A DNA stretch of 23,088 nt from a virus, in IMG/VR virus record IMGVR_UViG_3300023284_002685, positions 1 through 23,088 of that record. One strand, 5' to 3'. Shown here piece by piece: positions 5,184 through 20,077 of the stretch. How positions within the stretch are numbered: the first letter of the stretch is position 1; every line of letters starts with the position of its first letter. Under the pieces are notes generated by a model, which worked only from the letters and a program-made list of their open reading frames with translations, searched no databases and was not told the origin of the DNA. Made by a program: the position numbers and the translations under genes.

Positions 5184-5625
5184 AATTAAGATTATTGGGT
5201 TTCATCCGGAACATGTTAATTTGATGGATCTTAGACCAGAAGAACACAGCATACTTAAAACGGTCGAAGATGTTAAAGGTCGGATGATCGAAGTGGAAAA
5301 GATGTCTGTTCAGGCAGGCACGTTTATGTATGATGGAGTTATTATTTTTGCGGCTGGTTTTTATATTTACTGGCCTGGGGTTGCTGAAGGTTGGAATTTA
5401 TCGACTACGCATATTGAAAAAGCGCCCATGTTTTTTGCCAGAACTATGAAGAGGTATGTGGAATCAATTGCAGAGACTTTTAAATTACATCGTATTCAAA
5501 CAACAGCATTTGACGATCCTTTCCATGAGCGGTGGATGGGATGGTTAGGTTTTGAAAAAGAGGGCACAATGAGAAAATTCACACCTGATAAAAAAAATCA
5601 ATGCATGTACGCGAGGTTATTCTAA
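5176..5625 (+). CDS. GNAT-like protein in the T7 gp13 position
   Basis: The 149-residue product starts TKIKIIGFHPEHVNLMDLRP and has the layout of phage GNAT-like proteins (DUF2833 type): a beta strand with VIIFAAGFYIYWPGVAEGW, a helix with RTMKRYVESIAETFKLHRIQT, and a WMGWLGFEKEGTMRKF segment matching the final GNAT strand and 'GF..EG..R' motif. In T7 relatives the gp13 slot after gp12 holds a protein of similar size needed for virion assembly. Whether it acetylates anything is unknown, because the acetyl-CoA loop (R/Q-x-x-G-x-G/A) is not evident. The ATG at 5176 overlaps the previous gene by eight bases; an in-frame ATG at 5161 is the alternative. Neither has a good Shine-Dalgarno. Confidence 0.65.
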   Translation: MTKIKIIGFHPEHVNLMDLRPEEHSILKTVEDVKGRMIEVEKMSVQAGTFMYDGVIIFAAGFYIYWPGVAEGWNLSTTHIEKAPMFFARTMKRYVESIAETFKLHRIQTTAFDDPFHERWMGWLGFEKEGTMRKFTPDKKNQCMYARLF

Positions 5626-6101
5626 TGGCCGCGGCGATTCCAATAGCGCTTGCTGTTGTTGGCGGAGGGTTTGGCATTGCGGGAGGATTCGCAGCCGATA
5701 AAGCAGCTAAAAAAGAGGCCAATGCTCTTCGTGATGAGGGGATTTTATTAGAACAGGAATCTGTCCAAGAAGGTAAGCGCAGAGGCACAGAGATTCGTAA
5801 ATTCGCTAAGAGTCAGAAACTCGCTTTTATTTCGAGTGGAGTCGTTTTTTCAGGGTCGCCACTTTTGGTAACCGATGAGACTTTAACTCTCGGGCAAGAA
5901 GAAGTTAATTCGATTGTTAGACGAGGCACAGCTCAAAAGAATTTAGCTTTTCAACGCGCAGATATTACTCGGCGACGAGGACGCGCTGAATTAATTAACA
6001 GTTTTAGTGCTGCATTTACCAATACGGCAACGGCAACTGCTGGTTCGAGTGTTTTTAGTGGCGGTGGCGGTGGCAGCGGTGGTAGTGGAGGCGGTGCGTA
6101 A
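5625..6101 (+). CDS. Small internal virion protein (T7 gp14-like position)
   Basis: The 158-residue product begins with a hydrophobic Ala/Gly-rich helix (residues 2-27, AIPIALAVVGGGFGIAGGFA) followed by a long charged helical region (residues 27-75) and ends in a Gly/Ser-only tail. This matches small ejection proteins such as T7 gp14, which insert in the outer membrane during DNA entry. The ATG at 5625 forms TAATG with the previous stop, with GAGG eight bases upstream; an in-frame ATG at 5601 would lie inside the previous gene. The Gly-rich tail doubles as the ribosome binding site of the next gene (GGAGG about nine bases before its ATG). The role is inferred from position, size and composition. 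Confidence 0.68.
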   Translation: MAAAIPIALAVVGGGFGIAGGFAADKAAKKEANALRDEGILLEQESVQEGKRRGTEIRKFAKSQKLAFISSGVVFSGSPLLVTDETLTLGQEEVNSIVRRGTAQKNLAFQRADITRRRGRAELINSFSAAFTNTATATAGSSVFSGGGGGSGGSGGGA

Positions 6102-13916: not shown

Positions 13917-15989
13917 GTGAAGAAACCGATATTGGCAGTACTTCTTATTTGCGCGATGTTCCTACTCCAAGGATACCGTTGGGGTGGGTATGATCGTGGA
14001 AGTGATGATGCTGTCAATATCGGTACGGACACAACCCTTTTCGGAAATAATCTCTCAGTTCTAGATACGGATGTCCAAGCAGCTTTGGATACTCTGGATG
14101 ATATCTCCATCGGAGCGATGCTTGTGTTGGATCTGGGCGATAATGCTTCAAATGAGTCTTTAGATTTGAACAAAATCGCCACCACAGGCGATACTAACAG
14201 TGTGTTCACCGAACCATCCGCGGACAAGCTCCTGATCGACCTGGGGCAAAATTGGCCCACTGCGGACGTAGCCAATTCAGGGGACTCAGCTACAGCCTTC
14301 TTTTCCTCTGGAACTGTTGAAGCTGCTCGACTTCCAGACGCAGAAGGACTCAATACCTCATTGACTGCCGGATCTGTTGTATTCTCAGATGGCAGCAACC
14401 TTGCCCAAGACAATACCAATTTCTTTTGGGATGACGCTAATGATGTTTTGACATTAGGAGGCGTTACTTCTGTAGCTGGAGTTCGTTTGTTGCTCCCTAT
14501 GGAGAATGATGCTGTGACACCCACCTTCGCTTTCGGTGATGGCAATACGGGATTTTACGAAAGTGATGACAATACTATAGCTGTGGCAACCGCTGGACTC
14601 GTACGCTTTTCTTTTTTGACGAATAGAATTGACTCAGCGGCTACGGGTGGTTTTGGTATTTCCTATGTGGCAGCCAGCGCTACTGCCCCGACATTCCGAC
14701 CCGACAAGATGGATCTGGACACAGGATTAGGGCAAGCGGCTGAAGATCAATTGTCTTTAATCGCCGGAGGAATTGAAGGGATTCGTATCACAGAATCGGG
14801 ATCCGTTATTTCTGAATACAGATTCTTTGGTCTTGATTGTTCAGGAAATGCAAATGGTGGTGCAATCACAGCAGATGCTTCGGGGATTCTCTCTTGCACT
14901 GATGATGAGTCTGGAGGGCTTCCGGTGGTGGATACGACTTCAATTGCCGAAGGTTCAGCAGATGCGACTAAGGAAGTTAGATTTGAGGTAGATGGATTGA
15001 CTACTGGCACCGTCAGGGTCTTGACTGTGCCAGACTTTGATTTAACGATTGCGGGAACAGCAGCGCCTACATTCACGACAAGCATTACGGTTACGGGCGG
15101 TGGAGTTTTAGATGCTGATGGAATGGATCTCGACACCGGAAACGATTATGAAATTAATGGAACAGCGGTCTTGGATGCCACAACTCTTGGAGCGGCTGTT
15201 GTCAATTCATCGCTTACTTCAGTCGGCGCTTTAGCATCCGGATCAATCGCAGCGGGTTTTGGAGCAATTGATAACGGAACTTCGAATATTACGAGCGGTG
15301 GTCTCTGGCGCATCGATGTTGACGGAACTGCGATCAATGCTGTTGGCTCTTTGAACTTTGGAGCAACCGCAACAGACTCAGCCATTTATTGGAACGGAAC
15401 GAATCTTGAAATCGACACAACTTCAGCAATCGATTTCTCAATAAGTGGAACGCCCGAAGTGACCATTGATAGCGGCGGAATCAATCTGATCACAGGAGAT
15501 GCTTACGAGATTAATGGAACCTCAGTTTTAAATGCCACAACTCTTGGTACAGCCGTTGTCGCCTCGTCGCTTACAAGCGTTGGAACTTTAACGGGTGGAG
15601 ATGCAGACGCTGTGATTACTAGACCAGTTGTACTCAAATGGCAAACTGAAGCTGGAACCCAAGGAACCGGAAATAGCGCAACTTGTTTTACAATTCCCAT
15701 AGAACTTAATGGGATGGATCTTGTAAGTGTTGGGGGTCACGTTTACACGAACTCTTCTAGTGGAACACCTACGTATCAAATTAGAAACCAAACCGATACC
15801 GCAGACATGCTTTCCACGACCTTGACAATCGATGCAAATGAACCCGATTCTTCCACCGCTGCAACCGCAGCCGTCATTGACGGAACGAATGATGATGTTG
15901 TGACGGGTGATGAAATCTGTGTTGATAAAGACGTCGCAGGGACGGGGGAGGCTGGGGATGAGATCCGTCTCGGTTTTAGTACTCCTTAG
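13917..15989 (+). CDS. Repetitive tail-fibre-like protein with N-terminal signal-like segment
   Basis: The 690-residue product is Gly/Thr/Ser/Asp-rich with fibre motifs common in environmental phages: LSVLDTDVQAALDTLDD (residues about 47-63), an NFFWDDANDVLTLGG segment, GLDCSGNANGGAITADASGILSC and two copies of a YEINGT.VL.ATTLG.AVV..SLTSVG module. The N-terminus is unusual for a virion protein: MKKPILAVLLICAMFLLQGY has a basic start and a 16-residue hydrophobic core like a Sec signal or anchor, without a clear cleavage site or lipobox Cys. The start is GTG at 13917, with AAAGGG upstream. The alternative is that the hydrophobic end is a membrane anchor. It overlaps the next gene by 32 bases. 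Confidence 0.72.
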   Translation: MKKPILAVLLICAMFLLQGYRWGGYDRGSDDAVNIGTDTTLFGNNLSVLDTDVQAALDTLDDISIGAMLVLDLGDNASNESLDLNKIATTGDTNSVFTEPSADKLLIDLGQNWPTADVANSGDSATAFFSSGTVEAARLPDAEGLNTSLTAGSVVFSDGSNLAQDNTNFFWDDANDVLTLGGVTSVAGVRLLLPMENDAVTPTFAFGDGNTGFYESDDNTIAVATAGLVRFSFLTNRIDSAATGGFGISYVAASATAPTFRPDKMDLDTGLGQAAEDQLSLIAGGIEGIRITESGSVISEYRFFGLDCSGNANGGAITADASGILSCTDDESGGLPVVDTTSIAEGSADATKEVRFEVDGLTTGTVRVLTVPDFDLTIAGTAAPTFTTSITVTGGGVLDADGMDLDTGNDYEINGTAVLDATTLGAAVVNSSLTSVGALASGSIAAGFGAIDNGTSNITSGGLWRIDVDGTAINAVGSLNFGATATDSAIYWNGTNLEIDTTSAIDFSISGTPEVTIDSGGINLITGDAYEINGTSVLNATTLGTAVVASSLTSVGTLTGGDADAVITRPVVLKWQTEAGTQGTGNSATCFTIPIELNGMDLVSVGGHVYTNSSSGTPTYQIRNQTDTADMLSTTLTIDANEPDSSTAATAAVIDGTNDDVVTGDEICVDKDVAGTGEAGDEIRLGFSTP
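15147..15600 (+). repeat. Tandem fibre module, two copies 357 bases apart
   Basis: The segment starting at 15147 (YEINGTAVLDATTLG) recurs at 15504 (YEINGTSVLNATTLG) and both continue to SLTSVG. The copies are exactly 119 codons apart. The DNA copies share GCCACAACTCTTGG exactly but differ elsewhere, so this is an established fibre repeat, not an assembly duplicate. Confidence 0.75.
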
Positions 15990-17148
15990 TCTTTTATTCC
16001 TACCCATAGCGCCTAGTCCTTCGGCTTATGCCGGAGATACCACAGGTCTTGTAGCTGAGTATTTCCTTGATGAAGAGAGTGGAACTCGTGTAGATGAGAC
16101 TGCCAATAACAATGACTTAACAGATAACAATACAGTCTTGTTTGCTTCGGGTCAGTTTGGTAACGCTGCTGATTTTGAACTTGCCAATTCAGAATATTTG
16201 AGCATAACGGATGCTGCTCAAACTGGTCTTGATATAACTGGCGATCACACTATGGGGTGCTGGTGGAATCCAGAAACGATCACAGGCTCCAAGTGGTTAA
16301 TCAATAAAATCGGTTCGTCTGATTTTAACGGTTACGGAATATTTATGCCTTCCACTGGAGATATTAGCGTACGAATCCAGGCTGCAACAGCTTCATCAAT
16401 TAAGGGTTCGGCCATATTTGCCGTTTCAACTTGGGATCACGTAGTCTATACTTTTGATGATAGTGATAATGAACTTGAAGTGTTCGATCAAGGAACAAGT
16501 TGCTGCACAGCCGGAAATTCAGCCACTCTAACAAATAATGCAAATAACTTTGAGATTGGAAGGCTTGGGGATAATTCAGATTTCTATGATGGTTTAGCTG
16601 ATGAATGTTTTGTTTTTAGTCGAGAATTGACTGGAGCAGAAATCACCGATATTGCGGACAATGGACTAGCTGCTTTCGTATCCCCACCATTTCCTCCTAG
16701 AGCAATTCTTATGAATGTTTCAGTGGGATTCTCTAATCTTCTCATGAACAAATTGTATTATTATAATCTCGTTTACGAATATCGAAAGAAAATGATGAAA
16801 CGCGGGGATAATTTAGTGCCTTCTATTCCTGCGTGGATGAGAATTTTTGAAGTTCCGGAAGCGCTGGCCGAAATCAGCGCTGCGGTGACAACCGCCGTGA
16901 CAACAGAGTGGGATAAGAAGAAACAAGTTGCCACTCAGCCCGACGGAAAATATCAACAAGTTCTGAAACACGTTATTGATGAGGTCACATACGAGACTCA
17001 TGTTTATGATGGGCCTCAGGGGGTTGGCTATATTCAGATTGCCTGTAAGATGGATGCAGGTAAGGAAATGTGCAAAGAACGTGAGTTCGGCCCAGAGAAT
17101 AGGAATCTCAATATCAATTGGAAAGAAAAGAAAAGGATAGGGGCATAA
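15958..17148 (+). CDS. Secreted LamG (concanavalin-like) domain protein
   Basis: The 396-residue product has a textbook Sec signal: Met-Arg start, hydrophobic core SVLVLLSLLFLPIA and a likely signal peptidase I site after S-A-Y-A (residue 25). Residues about 30-222 read as a LamG/concanavalin A-like domain: GLVAEYFLDEESG, FGNAADFE, then an HTMGCWWNPETI strand, WDHVVYTFDDSDNELEVF, and the closing YDGLADECFVFSRELTGAEI. The C-terminal 170 residues are unrecognised and contain several Lys-rich stretches. GGGGAG just upstream chooses the ATG at 15958 over one at 15907, which would bury the signal. It overlaps the previous gene by 32 bases. Glycan binding is the usual LamG role; the ligand and location (periplasm or outside) are inferred. 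Confidence 0.75.
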   Translation: MRSVSVLVLLSLLFLPIAPSPSAYAGDTTGLVAEYFLDEESGTRVDETANNNDLTDNNTVLFASGQFGNAADFELANSEYLSITDAAQTGLDITGDHTMGCWWNPETITGSKWLINKIGSSDFNGYGIFMPSTGDISVRIQAATASSIKGSAIFAVSTWDHVVYTFDDSDNELEVFDQGTSCCTAGNSATLTNNANNFEIGRLGDNSDFYDGLADECFVFSRELTGAEITDIADNGLAAFVSPPFPPRAILMNVSVGFSNLLMNKLYYYNLVYEYRKKMMKRGDNLVPSIPAWMRIFEVPEALAEISAAVTTAVTTEWDKKKQVATQPDGKYQQVLKHVIDEVTYETHVYDGPQGVGYIQIACKMDAGKEMCKEREFGPENRNLNINWKEKKRIGA

Positions 17149-17635: not shown

Positions 17636-17962
17636 ATGGACACTTTTTTGCAAACTATTTTCAATCTCGGTTCTGCGATCTTTACGGTGATGTTGCCTAT
17701 TATCGGAGCGCTTGCAGGTAAATTACTTCACCGTTGGATCGCTGCTTCCAATACACAAATGGATGATCGCGCTGCGGCTGTTATTGTGGCTTGGGTGGAA
17801 GATCAGTACAAAGGTGGTAAGGGCGAAATTAAACGCGACGCTGCCACTAAAAAGTTGGTTGAATGGTCGAAGGGCCGTTTGAAAAAAGAAGATGCTGAAG
17901 GGCTTGTCCGCGCTGCATTTCAGGCGGGCTCGAACGCAGGTGGCCCACTAAAAAAAGGCTAA
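17636..17962 (+). CDS. Holin-like protein (LLH type)
   Basis: The 108-residue product has an N-terminal hydrophobic segment (FNLGSAIFTVMLPIIGALAGKLL, residues 9-31) followed by a soluble helical part with AAAVIVAWVEDQYKGGKGE and a KLVEWSKGRLKKEDAEGLVRAAF segment. This arrangement fits phage holin superfamily 6 (Holin_LLH), where one membrane helix is followed by 'V..VEQ.Y.g..g..K...A'. A holin would time inner-membrane permeabilisation. AAGGAG before the ATG gives strong translation. No endolysin is recognised beside it. The family match is from memory of the pattern. Confidence 0.6.
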   Translation: MDTFLQTIFNLGSAIFTVMLPIIGALAGKLLHRWIAASNTQMDDRAAAVIVAWVEDQYKGGKGEIKRDAATKKLVEWSKGRLKKEDAEGLVRAAFQAGSNAGGPLKKG

Positions 17963-18100: not shown

Positions 18101-18646
18101 ATGATGAATTTTAACAAAAAATTTCTAGCTCTTTTAATGGGCTTGTTTTTGGTTTCAAGCTCTGCTTATGCGACGCTGGATTTTCGCGATTCAGGCACTA
18201 AAGTGGGGCCATTCCATAAGGTCAATTTTAATTCGGGTTGTACAGTCACGGCAAATGGTGGAGAAGCTGTAATCAATTGTGTTACGGCTGCGATCACGGG
18301 GGGTACGATCGACGGAGCTGTTATCGGAGGCGTTACGCCGGCAGCAGGTACGTTTACCACACTTATCGCGACTGCCGGAACGATTGATGGCAACATCATA
18401 GGCGGCACTACGGCAGTAGCTGGTACTTTCACCACACTTACCGGAACAGATATTATCTCAACACACTACCTGCAACTCTACGTAACGACTTCTGCTTTTC
18501 GTCCCGCATCAGGAGCTACAGCGGGCAGCATGTTGGCGTTAAGTAATGCAAATGGTGTGAATGATTGCGGTAACGCAGGTGGTGGATCCACATTTAACGT
18601 TTGTGTTTCTGACGGAACCAATTGGCTTGATCTAGACGTTGGTTAA
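18101..18646 (+). CDS. Signal-peptide protein with phage fibre repeats
   Basis: The 181-residue product begins with a clear Sec signal (basic N-F-N-K-K, core FLALLMGLFLVSSS, cleavage after A-Y-A near residue 24). The mature part holds two copies of a fibre repeat, GTIDG..IGG.T...GTFTTL, of the kind found in tail fibres, and a C-terminal AFRPASGATAGSMLALS region with four further Cys-bearing loops (NDCGNAGGG, FNVCVSDGTNWLDL). AGGAGG at 18093-18098 supports ATG at 18101 (an adjacent ATG is at 18104). Its stop overlaps the next start as TAATG. A secreted or surface fibre-like protein is suggested; the function is unknown. Confidence 0.68.
   Translation: MMNFNKKFLALLMGLFLVSSSAYATLDFRDSGTKVGPFHKVNFNSGCTVTANGGEAVINCVTAAITGGTIDGAVIGGVTPAAGTFTTLIATAGTIDGNIIGGTTAVAGTFTTLTGTDIISTHYLQLYVTTSAFRPASGATAGSMLALSNANGVNDCGNAGGGSTFNVCVSDGTNWLDLDVG
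18302..18451 (+). repeat. Two 75-base fibre repeats
   Basis: Units beginning at 18302 and 18377 encode GTIDG..IGG.T...GTFTTL twice, 25 codons apart. The DNA copies have diverged at many third positions. Short Gly/Thr repeats of this form build triple-beta fibre shafts in phage tail fibres. Confidence 0.7.
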
Positions 18647-19752
18647 TGTTCAATAAATTTGCACTGCTTTTGCTTTTTTCCAACTTGGTCTTATTCGTCC
18701 CCTCCTGGGGGCGGATAGACCAAGGGGAAATTTTCGGATTCTGTTCCTACATTGCAATTCTCATCAGTTCCTTCTTCGTAGCATCTCAAAAAAAAATCGA
18801 TACAAGAGCAATTGGAATCTTGGCTGTGATTGCCTTGGTGTCTTATTTTTTTAATTTCAATGACATCGTTACACGTTATGGATTCTTACAATACCTAGCC
18901 ATTCTTTTGGCATTGATTGTCTTATCCAAACGACTGACATTAGATGAATTCGACATTTCAACTTTGGCCTCTCTTTATTTTCTTCTTACACATATAGTTC
19001 TGATGGCACAATACGTCGAACCTAAAGCACTGCACATTTTCAATACTGCAGAGGTAAGCGGCTTCACACAAATCCCTTGGGCGCTGGGGACTGTGACGGT
19101 ATTGCTGTTGCCCTTCATACTGAGGATCCACTGGAGTTTTATATTGCTCGCGATCCTACCTCTTTATGCCTCGAAATCAGTAATTTGTTGTGGGATTGCA
19201 GCGTTAATTTTTCTAATAATGATGTGGCAGGTTCATCGAAAAATCGCGATCGCGCTGTTGTTGACCGGGTTCTTTACAACGGCTGGGTTACTCATAAAAG
19301 ATTTCGAAATTGACCGACAACCGGATCATTTGACTCTTAATGTGGCCGGGCATCGTTTTGCAGTTGACTCAATGCGTTTTGAAGTCTGGAAACGAAGCGC
19401 TCCCTATCAAGAAAATCTATGGGTCGGGGAAGGTTTAGGATCCTGGGCGCACAAAGGATTTGTTAATCGCAACGGCAGCACGTATTACCACTGGCGCTGG
19501 GCGCACAATGAAGTGTACCAATATTATTTTGAGCAGGGAATTGTGGGGGCGGTGGCGTTACTGCTTTGGCTCGGGTATCTTTTTAAGCGATCGGATCTGA
19601 CATGTCGATTAGTTTTGATATCTTTGTTTTTGACGAGCATGGTGCATCCGACTTTCCATTATCAAAGGACTGCCTTCTTAGCGTTCTTCCTTCTTGCCTT
19701 CGTGTACTCTAAGACAGGAACGAAAGATCTTGCAACACAAAATCATCACTAG
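18646..19752 (+). CDS. O-antigen ligase/polymerase-like membrane protein
   Basis: The 368-residue product is polytopic: about nine to eleven hydrophobic segments, with a large loop around residues 220-290. That loop and what follows carry the O-antigen ligase (WaaL, Wzy_C) signature: R244 in SMRFEVW, W-V-G-E-G-L-G-S-W (259-267) and H287-N288 followed by nine residues and G298-x-x-G301, matching H[NSQ]x9GxxG. WaaL joins O-antigen to lipid A core; related Wzy proteins polymerise O units; both act on the periplasmic side. A phage copy could alter the host surface. It is TAATG-coupled to the signal-peptide fibre gene and overlaps a minus-strand gene by 44 bases at its end. Ligase and polymerase cannot be told apart by sequence alone. 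Confidence 0.8.
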   Translation: MFNKFALLLLFSNLVLFVPSWGRIDQGEIFGFCSYIAILISSFFVASQKKIDTRAIGILAVIALVSYFFNFNDIVTRYGFLQYLAILLALIVLSKRLTLDEFDISTLASLYFLLTHIVLMAQYVEPKALHIFNTAEVSGFTQIPWALGTVTVLLLPFILRIHWSFILLAILPLYASKSVICCGIAALIFLIMMWQVHRKIAIALLLTGFFTTAGLLIKDFEIDRQPDHLTLNVAGHRFAVDSMRFEVWKRSAPYQENLWVGEGLGSWAHKGFVNRNGSTYYHWRWAHNEVYQYYFEQGIVGAVALLLWLGYLFKRSDLTCRLVLISLFLTSMVHPTFHYQRTAFLAFFLLAFVYSKTGTKDLATQNHH

Positions 19753-20077
19753 ATGAAAGAACCAAGCAATATACTTTAGGCTGCCACTTCACTCTGCCCT
19801 TTTTAAGTTTTCTCCAGCCATGAATTTCAATTTCGTTTCCCGATCGGAGCCATGCTTTAGCGGCGGGGAGCTTACTTATCTTTTTAACTCGCTCTGAAAC
19901 ATTGGATCCCGTTGTGGTTTGTACCGCGAGAAGATGGCCATAACCAATCCCCACGATATCAATGAATCCAAAGAGATCCTTCCGACGTTTAGCAAAGGGG
20001 TTCCAATGCTCGGACACATCGGCGATGTAGCTACGGTCACGAAGATATTTTAATGATCGTTGTGTGGGCGATCGCAT
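19709..20077 (-). CDS. Small PD-(D/E)XK-like protein
   Basis: The 122-residue product begins SPTQRSLKYLRDRSYIADVSEHW and contains DLFGFIDIVGIG (D34, D40) followed by LLAVQTT (Q53-x-T55) and a HGWRK segment. This order (acid in a first strand, then a hydrophobic strand ending in E/Q-x-K) is that of PD-(D/E)XK nuclease or resolvase-like folds, often found in phages as short proteins. The last position is Thr instead of Lys, so catalysis is uncertain. It starts inside the previous gene (28-base overlap), suggesting coupled translation, and ends 44 bases inside the O-antigen ligase-like gene on the other strand. No strong Shine-Dalgarno is visible. Confidence 0.6.
   Translation of the reverse strand: MRSPTQRSLKYLRDRSYIADVSEHWNPFAKRRKDLFGFIDIVGIGYGHLLAVQTTTGSNVSERVKKISKLPAAKAWLRSGNEIEIHGWRKLKKGRVKWQPKVYCLVLSSSDDFVLQDLSFLS

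Follow-up and report, generated by a model that had tools for sequence, protein, structure and literature searches.

A putative Wzy_C-family glycan transferase encoded by the last late gene of a podovirus fragment

Main finding

The stretch of DNA analysed here (the window) is a linear virus fragment of 23,088 bases from an IMG/VR record. The final late gene of the window (18646..19752, + strand, ATG start, 368 aa) encodes a polytopic membrane protein, P0001, for which the function of Und-PP-glycan transferase is proposed. Membership in the Wzy_C (PF04932) superfamily is well supported by the sequence, and so is the reaction predicted from it, transfer from a lipid-diphosphate donor. Our preferred reading, held at slightly better than even confidence, is that P0001 is a periplasmic glycan transferase made late in infection, which would remodel the surface glycan of the host.

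Membership in the Wzy_C superfamily

In a Pfam search, residues 165-306 of P0001 matched Wzy_C with 34.9 bits against a curated cut-off of 31.7 (E 1.6e-8), and no other family appeared when the scan was extended to E 10; neither PglL_A (PF15864) nor Wzy_C_2 was matched in P0001. Two relatives from other virus records, P0002 and P0003, scored 46.6 and 67.5 bits with PF04932, both above the cut-off. With P0001 alone no PDB sequence was matched; a profile made of the three proteins matched the solved WaaL 7TPG (E 4.2e-10) and, over almost the full length, the O-oligosaccharyltransferase 9RMK (E 2.7e-9). A preliminary description of this DNA had placed the protein in the WaaL/Wzy_C family and had suggested a comparison with PF04932; the placement is borne out by a score above the cut-off and by the profile match to a solved WaaL. 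Searches of PHROGs and NCBIfam with P0001 gave no significant match, and hhalign with E. coli WaaL or D3 Wzy-beta as single sequences gave no usable signal, but the HNE motif of WaaL was in register. AlphaFold models built from the three sequences, with few homologues in the input, had pLDDT values of 39.8 and 38.4.

A crude hydropathy scan detected 10 membrane segments in P0001, whose real number is probably 11-12, and a single 77-residue loop (residues 218-294) that contains R244 and H287. This topology agrees with the 10-12 helices and the large loop in the C-terminal half that are expected of the family. The residues named previously, i.e., R244, W259, G261, G263, L264, G265, H287, N288, G298 and G301, are all at the positions given for them. 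Likewise, R244, W248, G261/G263/G265, H287-N288-E289, Q292, G298 and G301 are invariant in P0001, P0002 and P0003. Counted along the printed profile alignment, R244 (codon 19375..19377, +) falls on Arg-265 of 7TPG, and H287 (codon 19504..19506, +) on His-313. In 7TPG, Arg-191 and Arg-265 bind Und-PP, Arg-265 at the diphosphate, and His-313 is proposed to activate the acceptor (PMC10920833). This protein, the O-antigen ligase WaaL of Cupriavidus metallidurans (7TPG/7TPJ), is similar to P0001 in the core Arg and His. The two proteins differ in that 7TPG is a bacterial LPS ligase with Arg-191, whereas the phage protein has Lys177 in that place (also a Lys in P0002, and an Ala in P0003), in a weak region where the correspondence depends on the alignment; with this reservation, the Lys would argue against surface-glycan remodelling.

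It is highly improbable that P0001 is an unrelated transporter, or another polytopic protein that carries the motif by chance. The Pfam margin of P0001 itself is small, and its sole NCBIfam line is a weak antiporter model; at 12.8 bits, where the cut-off is 114, this line does not give the firm placement in an unrelated transporter family that the preliminary description had named as the outcome contrary to its claim. On the other hand, P0002 and P0003 are firm Wzy_C members whose core residues coincide with those of P0001 in the alignment. Composition shuffles of P0001 contained HN-x9-G-x-x-G in 225 cases out of 200,000 and W-x-G-x-G-[LIV]-G in 90 out of 200,000, and both motifs together in 0 out of 200,000. 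The PF04932 score, the core residues common to the relatives and the profile match to 7TPG led us to reject a transporter with a chance motif. Within the superfamily, ligases, polymerases and protein O-oligosaccharyltransferases have a common core, and are inseparable by sequence in this case.

The genomic setting

The capsid and tail proteins of the window are nearest to those of MW202485 (capsid 58% identical) and HTVC010P (31%); therefore, as judged from these proteins, the phage is an HTVC010P/MW202485-like podovirus and not a strict relative of T7. The virion gene block had been described as T7-like, which holds in the broad podovirus sense but not as strict T7 kinship. An integrase (PF00589) was detected in D3, used as a control, but not in the window, in the related virus records G007 and G014, or in MW202485 and HTVC010P. 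For this reason a lytic life style is likely; nevertheless it is not proven, because the window and the IMG/VR records may be incomplete.

The Wzy_C gene closes the late (+) block, in agreement with the distal position first attributed to it. Its ATG overlaps the stop codon of the preceding gene (TTAATG), and at the 3' end it shares 44 nt with the convergent gene 19709-20077 (-). The preceding gene (18101..18646, +), with AGGAGG upstream, encodes a small Ser/Thr/Gly/Ala-rich protein that has a signal-peptide-like N-terminus and no Pfam or PHROG match. The late block also includes, upstream of the Wzy_C gene, a holin-like gene (17636..17962, +) that marks a lysis neighbourhood, and a gene (15958..17148, +) for a LamG/ConA-like protein (PF13385, E 5e-17, Pfam), likewise with a signal-peptide-like N-terminus. 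The latter is a lectin-fold product encoded in the late block, near a glycan enzyme gene.

The convergent gene (19709..20077, -) is small and forms the replication-side border of the slot; the genes for a DNA polymerase and a single-strand-binding protein lie behind it. Its product is 47% identical to a homologue encoded beside the Wzy_C gene of G007 (L011). Similar proteins (45-54% identical) occur in ten other virus records, and no Pfam or PHROG match was obtained. The conserved stretches GFIDIV...LAVQTTTGSN and IHGWRKLK suggest, by eye, a PD-(D/E)XK-like nuclease or resolvase.

The third-position GC of the Wzy_C gene (0.47) resembles that of the replication genes (0.43-0.49) and not that of the late genes (0.35-0.43), despite its location on the late strand. 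Scans for a promoter or terminator belonging to this gene gave counts no better than those of shuffles, and tRNA and Rfam scans gave 0 matches in the window. Other O-antigen genes were not recognised in the scanned parts of the window, which is a fragment whose companion genes may lie outside.

The holin-like gene near the late distal end is relevant to the proposal that P0001 disturbs the envelope: late in infection it would consume or sequester Und-PP-linked glycan, and so help lysis or halt the synthesis of cell wall and O-antigen. The chemistry of the Wzy_C superfamily recycles the same lipid carrier that is needed by peptidoglycan, which would fit this proposal, as would the fact that VG_p25, the Wzy_C gene of phage VarioGold, also borders lysis genes. 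However, the Wzy_C gene is on the replication strand in G007 and among structural genes, not lysis genes, in a further record, L051. In addition, conservation of the catalytic residues points to an ordinary transfer reaction, and a role in envelope disturbance appears improbable.

Distribution among related viruses

The frequency of the Wzy_C gene was estimated from the window and 37 virus records fetched by their relatedness to other window genes, and the gene was present in two of these, the window and G007 (43 kb). In G007 the gene for P0002 is on the replication strand, behind the DNA polymerase gene and the homologue of 19709-20077. P0003 is encoded between capsid and tail genes in L051 (6 kb), a record left out of the frequency because the Wzy_C alignment itself had led to it. 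As optional cargo, the gene is present in three virus records at three different places, and it may have been gained or moved more than once. In tblastn searches, P0001 had no match in phages and plasmids, and P0002 and P0003 had none in phages. Bacterial relatives were likewise absent when P0001 and the P0001/P0002 alignment were used against genome contigs, with pattern scans that reach close relatives only.

The closest long relative of the window, G014 (capsid 68%), has no Wzy_C gene. Its late distal end carries an alpha/beta-hydrolase-like gene (region L037:4861-5484 and 5474-5971), and near the same end MW202485 carries a gene annotated as GDSL esterase, i.e., other possible surface-active enzymes occur at the late distal ends of near relatives. 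On its replication side, G014 has a RuvC-like gene where the window has 19709-20077 (L037:4861-5484, 5474-5971). Judged from G014, the convergent border is a variable slot on both sides.

If the gene were a passenger that came from bacteria and had no selected function in the phage, this would account for the small number of related records that carry it, each at a different place, and for its lack in G014. Nevertheless, this reading is quite unlikely, given that the reading frame is intact and the core residues are conserved, that the gene is tied to the late operon by the start-stop overlap and to the next gene by the compact 44-nt overlap, and that its composition is inside the range spanned by the other genes of the window. 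Moreover, the virus Wzy_C proteins have diverged strongly (P0002 and P0003 show just 24-30% identity with P0001), and hence are not fresh captures.

Exported proteins as possible acceptors

Protein O-oligosaccharyltransferases, which have the same domain as P0001, are absent from the preliminary description. A PglL/PilO-like enzyme of this kind would transfer host Und-PP glycan to Ser/Thr of exported phage proteins, and the 18101-18646 product, the first candidate, is a possible acceptor. We regard this function as the main alternative to surface-glycan remodelling, though an unlikely one. It agrees with the profile match to 9RMK over nearly the whole length, and with the fact that the start of the Wzy_C gene overlaps the stop of an exported-protein gene both in the window and in L051, where the neighbour is a small lipoprotein-like gene; the Wzy_C gene of VarioGold also adjoins a signal-peptide gene. 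PglL genes typically adjoin the genes of their substrates and lie outside LPS loci (PMC3643930), and the PglL/PilO-type enzymes (9RMK; PMC3643930) share with P0001 the Wzy_C core and an adjoining exported-protein gene. They differ in that P0001 lacks a PglL_A or Wzy_C_2 match, although PilO is also without the PglL motifs (PMC3643930), and in that the neighbour of the P0001 gene is not a pilin gene. Furthermore, the Wzy_C gene of G007 is not beside an exported-protein gene, and G014 has signal-peptide proteins without Wzy_C.

ORFs with a signal peptide were counted in 3 of the 3 Wzy_C records and in 2 of 36 others (one-sided p 0.001, post hoc). This enrichment is a lead and not a result, as the count uses a home-made score on stretches of partial, related records and the hypothesis was formed after looking, which also weighs against the O-oligosaccharyltransferase function. 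In an extended version, this phage group would send some of its own proteins, virion-like ones among them, through Sec, and its own Wzy_C-family O-oligosaccharyltransferase would then attach to them the lipid-linked glycan of the host. This version is unlikely; if true, the phages would encode a pathway for protein glycosylation in the periplasm.

In the late or structural blocks, signal-peptide-like N-termini were observed in the products of 15958-17148, 18101-18646 and possibly 13917-15989 of the window, as well as in those of L034:12139-12597, 14532-14873 and 15986-16900, L051:1736-2272, and L037:3825-4160. By the single home-made score, such proteins are present in the three Wzy_C records and G014, and in almost no other related record. 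Genes of this type are directly behind the capsid gene in G007 and L051. The product of L051:4976-5998 is a virion structural protein (phrog_3287, E 7e-28) whose family homology begins at residue 31; it starts with MKKLLLTLLLSLSLTCGFAQ, a signal-peptide-like extension before the start of the family. A literature search on signal peptides of tailed-phage structural proteins returned nothing specific among the papers listed.

Phage precedents and the proposed role

Wzy-beta of phage D3 (NP_061525.2) is a proven O-antigen polymerase that bears Wzy_C and has the essential residues Arg254, Arg270, Arg272 and His300 (PMC4815439); phage O-antigen polymerases convert the host serotype (PMC4815439, PMC9658991), as the preliminary description had stated in general terms for other O-antigen modifying enzymes of temperate phages. 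A second published phage Wzy_C protein is VG_p25 (UYD72073.1) from VarioGold (PMC9658991), which shows 31% identity with Wzy-beta. With PF04932, Wzy-beta scored 21.9 bits only. A tblastn search with Wzy-beta detected 12 phage records, eleven from Pseudomonas phages and VarioGold, and P0001 had no detectable tblastn similarity to Wzy-beta or VG_p25. P0001 is a new, divergent addition to the known phage Wzy_C proteins, and its phage group and gene position are unusual. A literature search for surveys of viral PF04932 returned nothing specific among the papers listed.

Wzy-beta is similar to P0001 in being phage-encoded and polytopic, with a Wzy_C region and an Arg and a His in a large periplasmic loop. 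The D3 gene is cargo between tail and lysis genes of a temperate phage, oriented opposite to the late genes, and its product works with iap and oac, whereas no acyltransferase was found among the late-end proteins scanned in the window. The gene of VG_p25, a Wzy_C protein of putative function, is beside lysis genes and directly adjoins the signal-peptide gene VG_p26; VarioGold is also temperate and this gene too is opposite to the late genes, in contrast with the late strand location in the window. The genes of Wzy-beta, VG_p25 and P0001 are all found between tail/fibre and lysis or replication genes, a usual place for cargo. A lysogenic conversion cassette of the D3 type was set aside for the window: the gene lies on the late strand, no integrase was detected in the window or in the long records closest to it, and Wzy-beta has no tblastn match to P0001. 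The first two of these points also make the earlier analogy with temperate phages weak.

Surface-glycan remodelling remains the best reading because phage Wzy_C proteins are known and Wzy-beta is a proven polymerase. We infer the activity, acceptor, timing and benefit as follows. P0001, as a member of the Wzy_C (WaaL / inverting Wzy / O-oligosaccharyltransferase) superfamily, would be a polytopic glycosyltransferase of the inner membrane, produced late together with the virion and lysis proteins. It would take up, on the periplasmic side, the undecaprenyl-diphosphate-linked glycan made by the host, with R244 holding the diphosphate and H287 acting on the acceptor, and would pass the glycan to a surface acceptor, either lipid A-core or a growing O-chain. 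The surface polysaccharide of the infected cell would be altered, similarly to the effect of Wzy-beta, and glycan-binding phages or the phage's own progeny may then adsorb less to the infected cell or its debris. The interpretation in the preliminary description is thereby supported in part, for the family assignment; an effect on LPS that blocks superinfection would be a possible consequence. Against this role, late expression would leave little time for a change in LPS, P0001 is not related to Wzy-beta by tblastn, and no accompanying O-antigen gene was seen in the scanned parts.

The published cases used for comparison, D3 and VarioGold, are both temperate and convert their lysogens. In the window, the Wzy_C enzyme is encoded at the late distal end of a podovirus that seems to be lytic, and one may ask what such a phage gains from moving glycans shortly before lysis; candidate gains are that progeny are kept off debris, that kin are excluded, or that the exported proteins of the phage itself are decorated.

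Regarding annotation, D3 Wzy-beta is an O-antigen polymerase, yet the group to which it belongs, phrog_19842, carries the name 'polymerase' and the category DNA, RNA and nucleotide metabolism; two Pseudomonas phage records annotate members of phrog_19842 as phosphatidate cytidylyltransferase.
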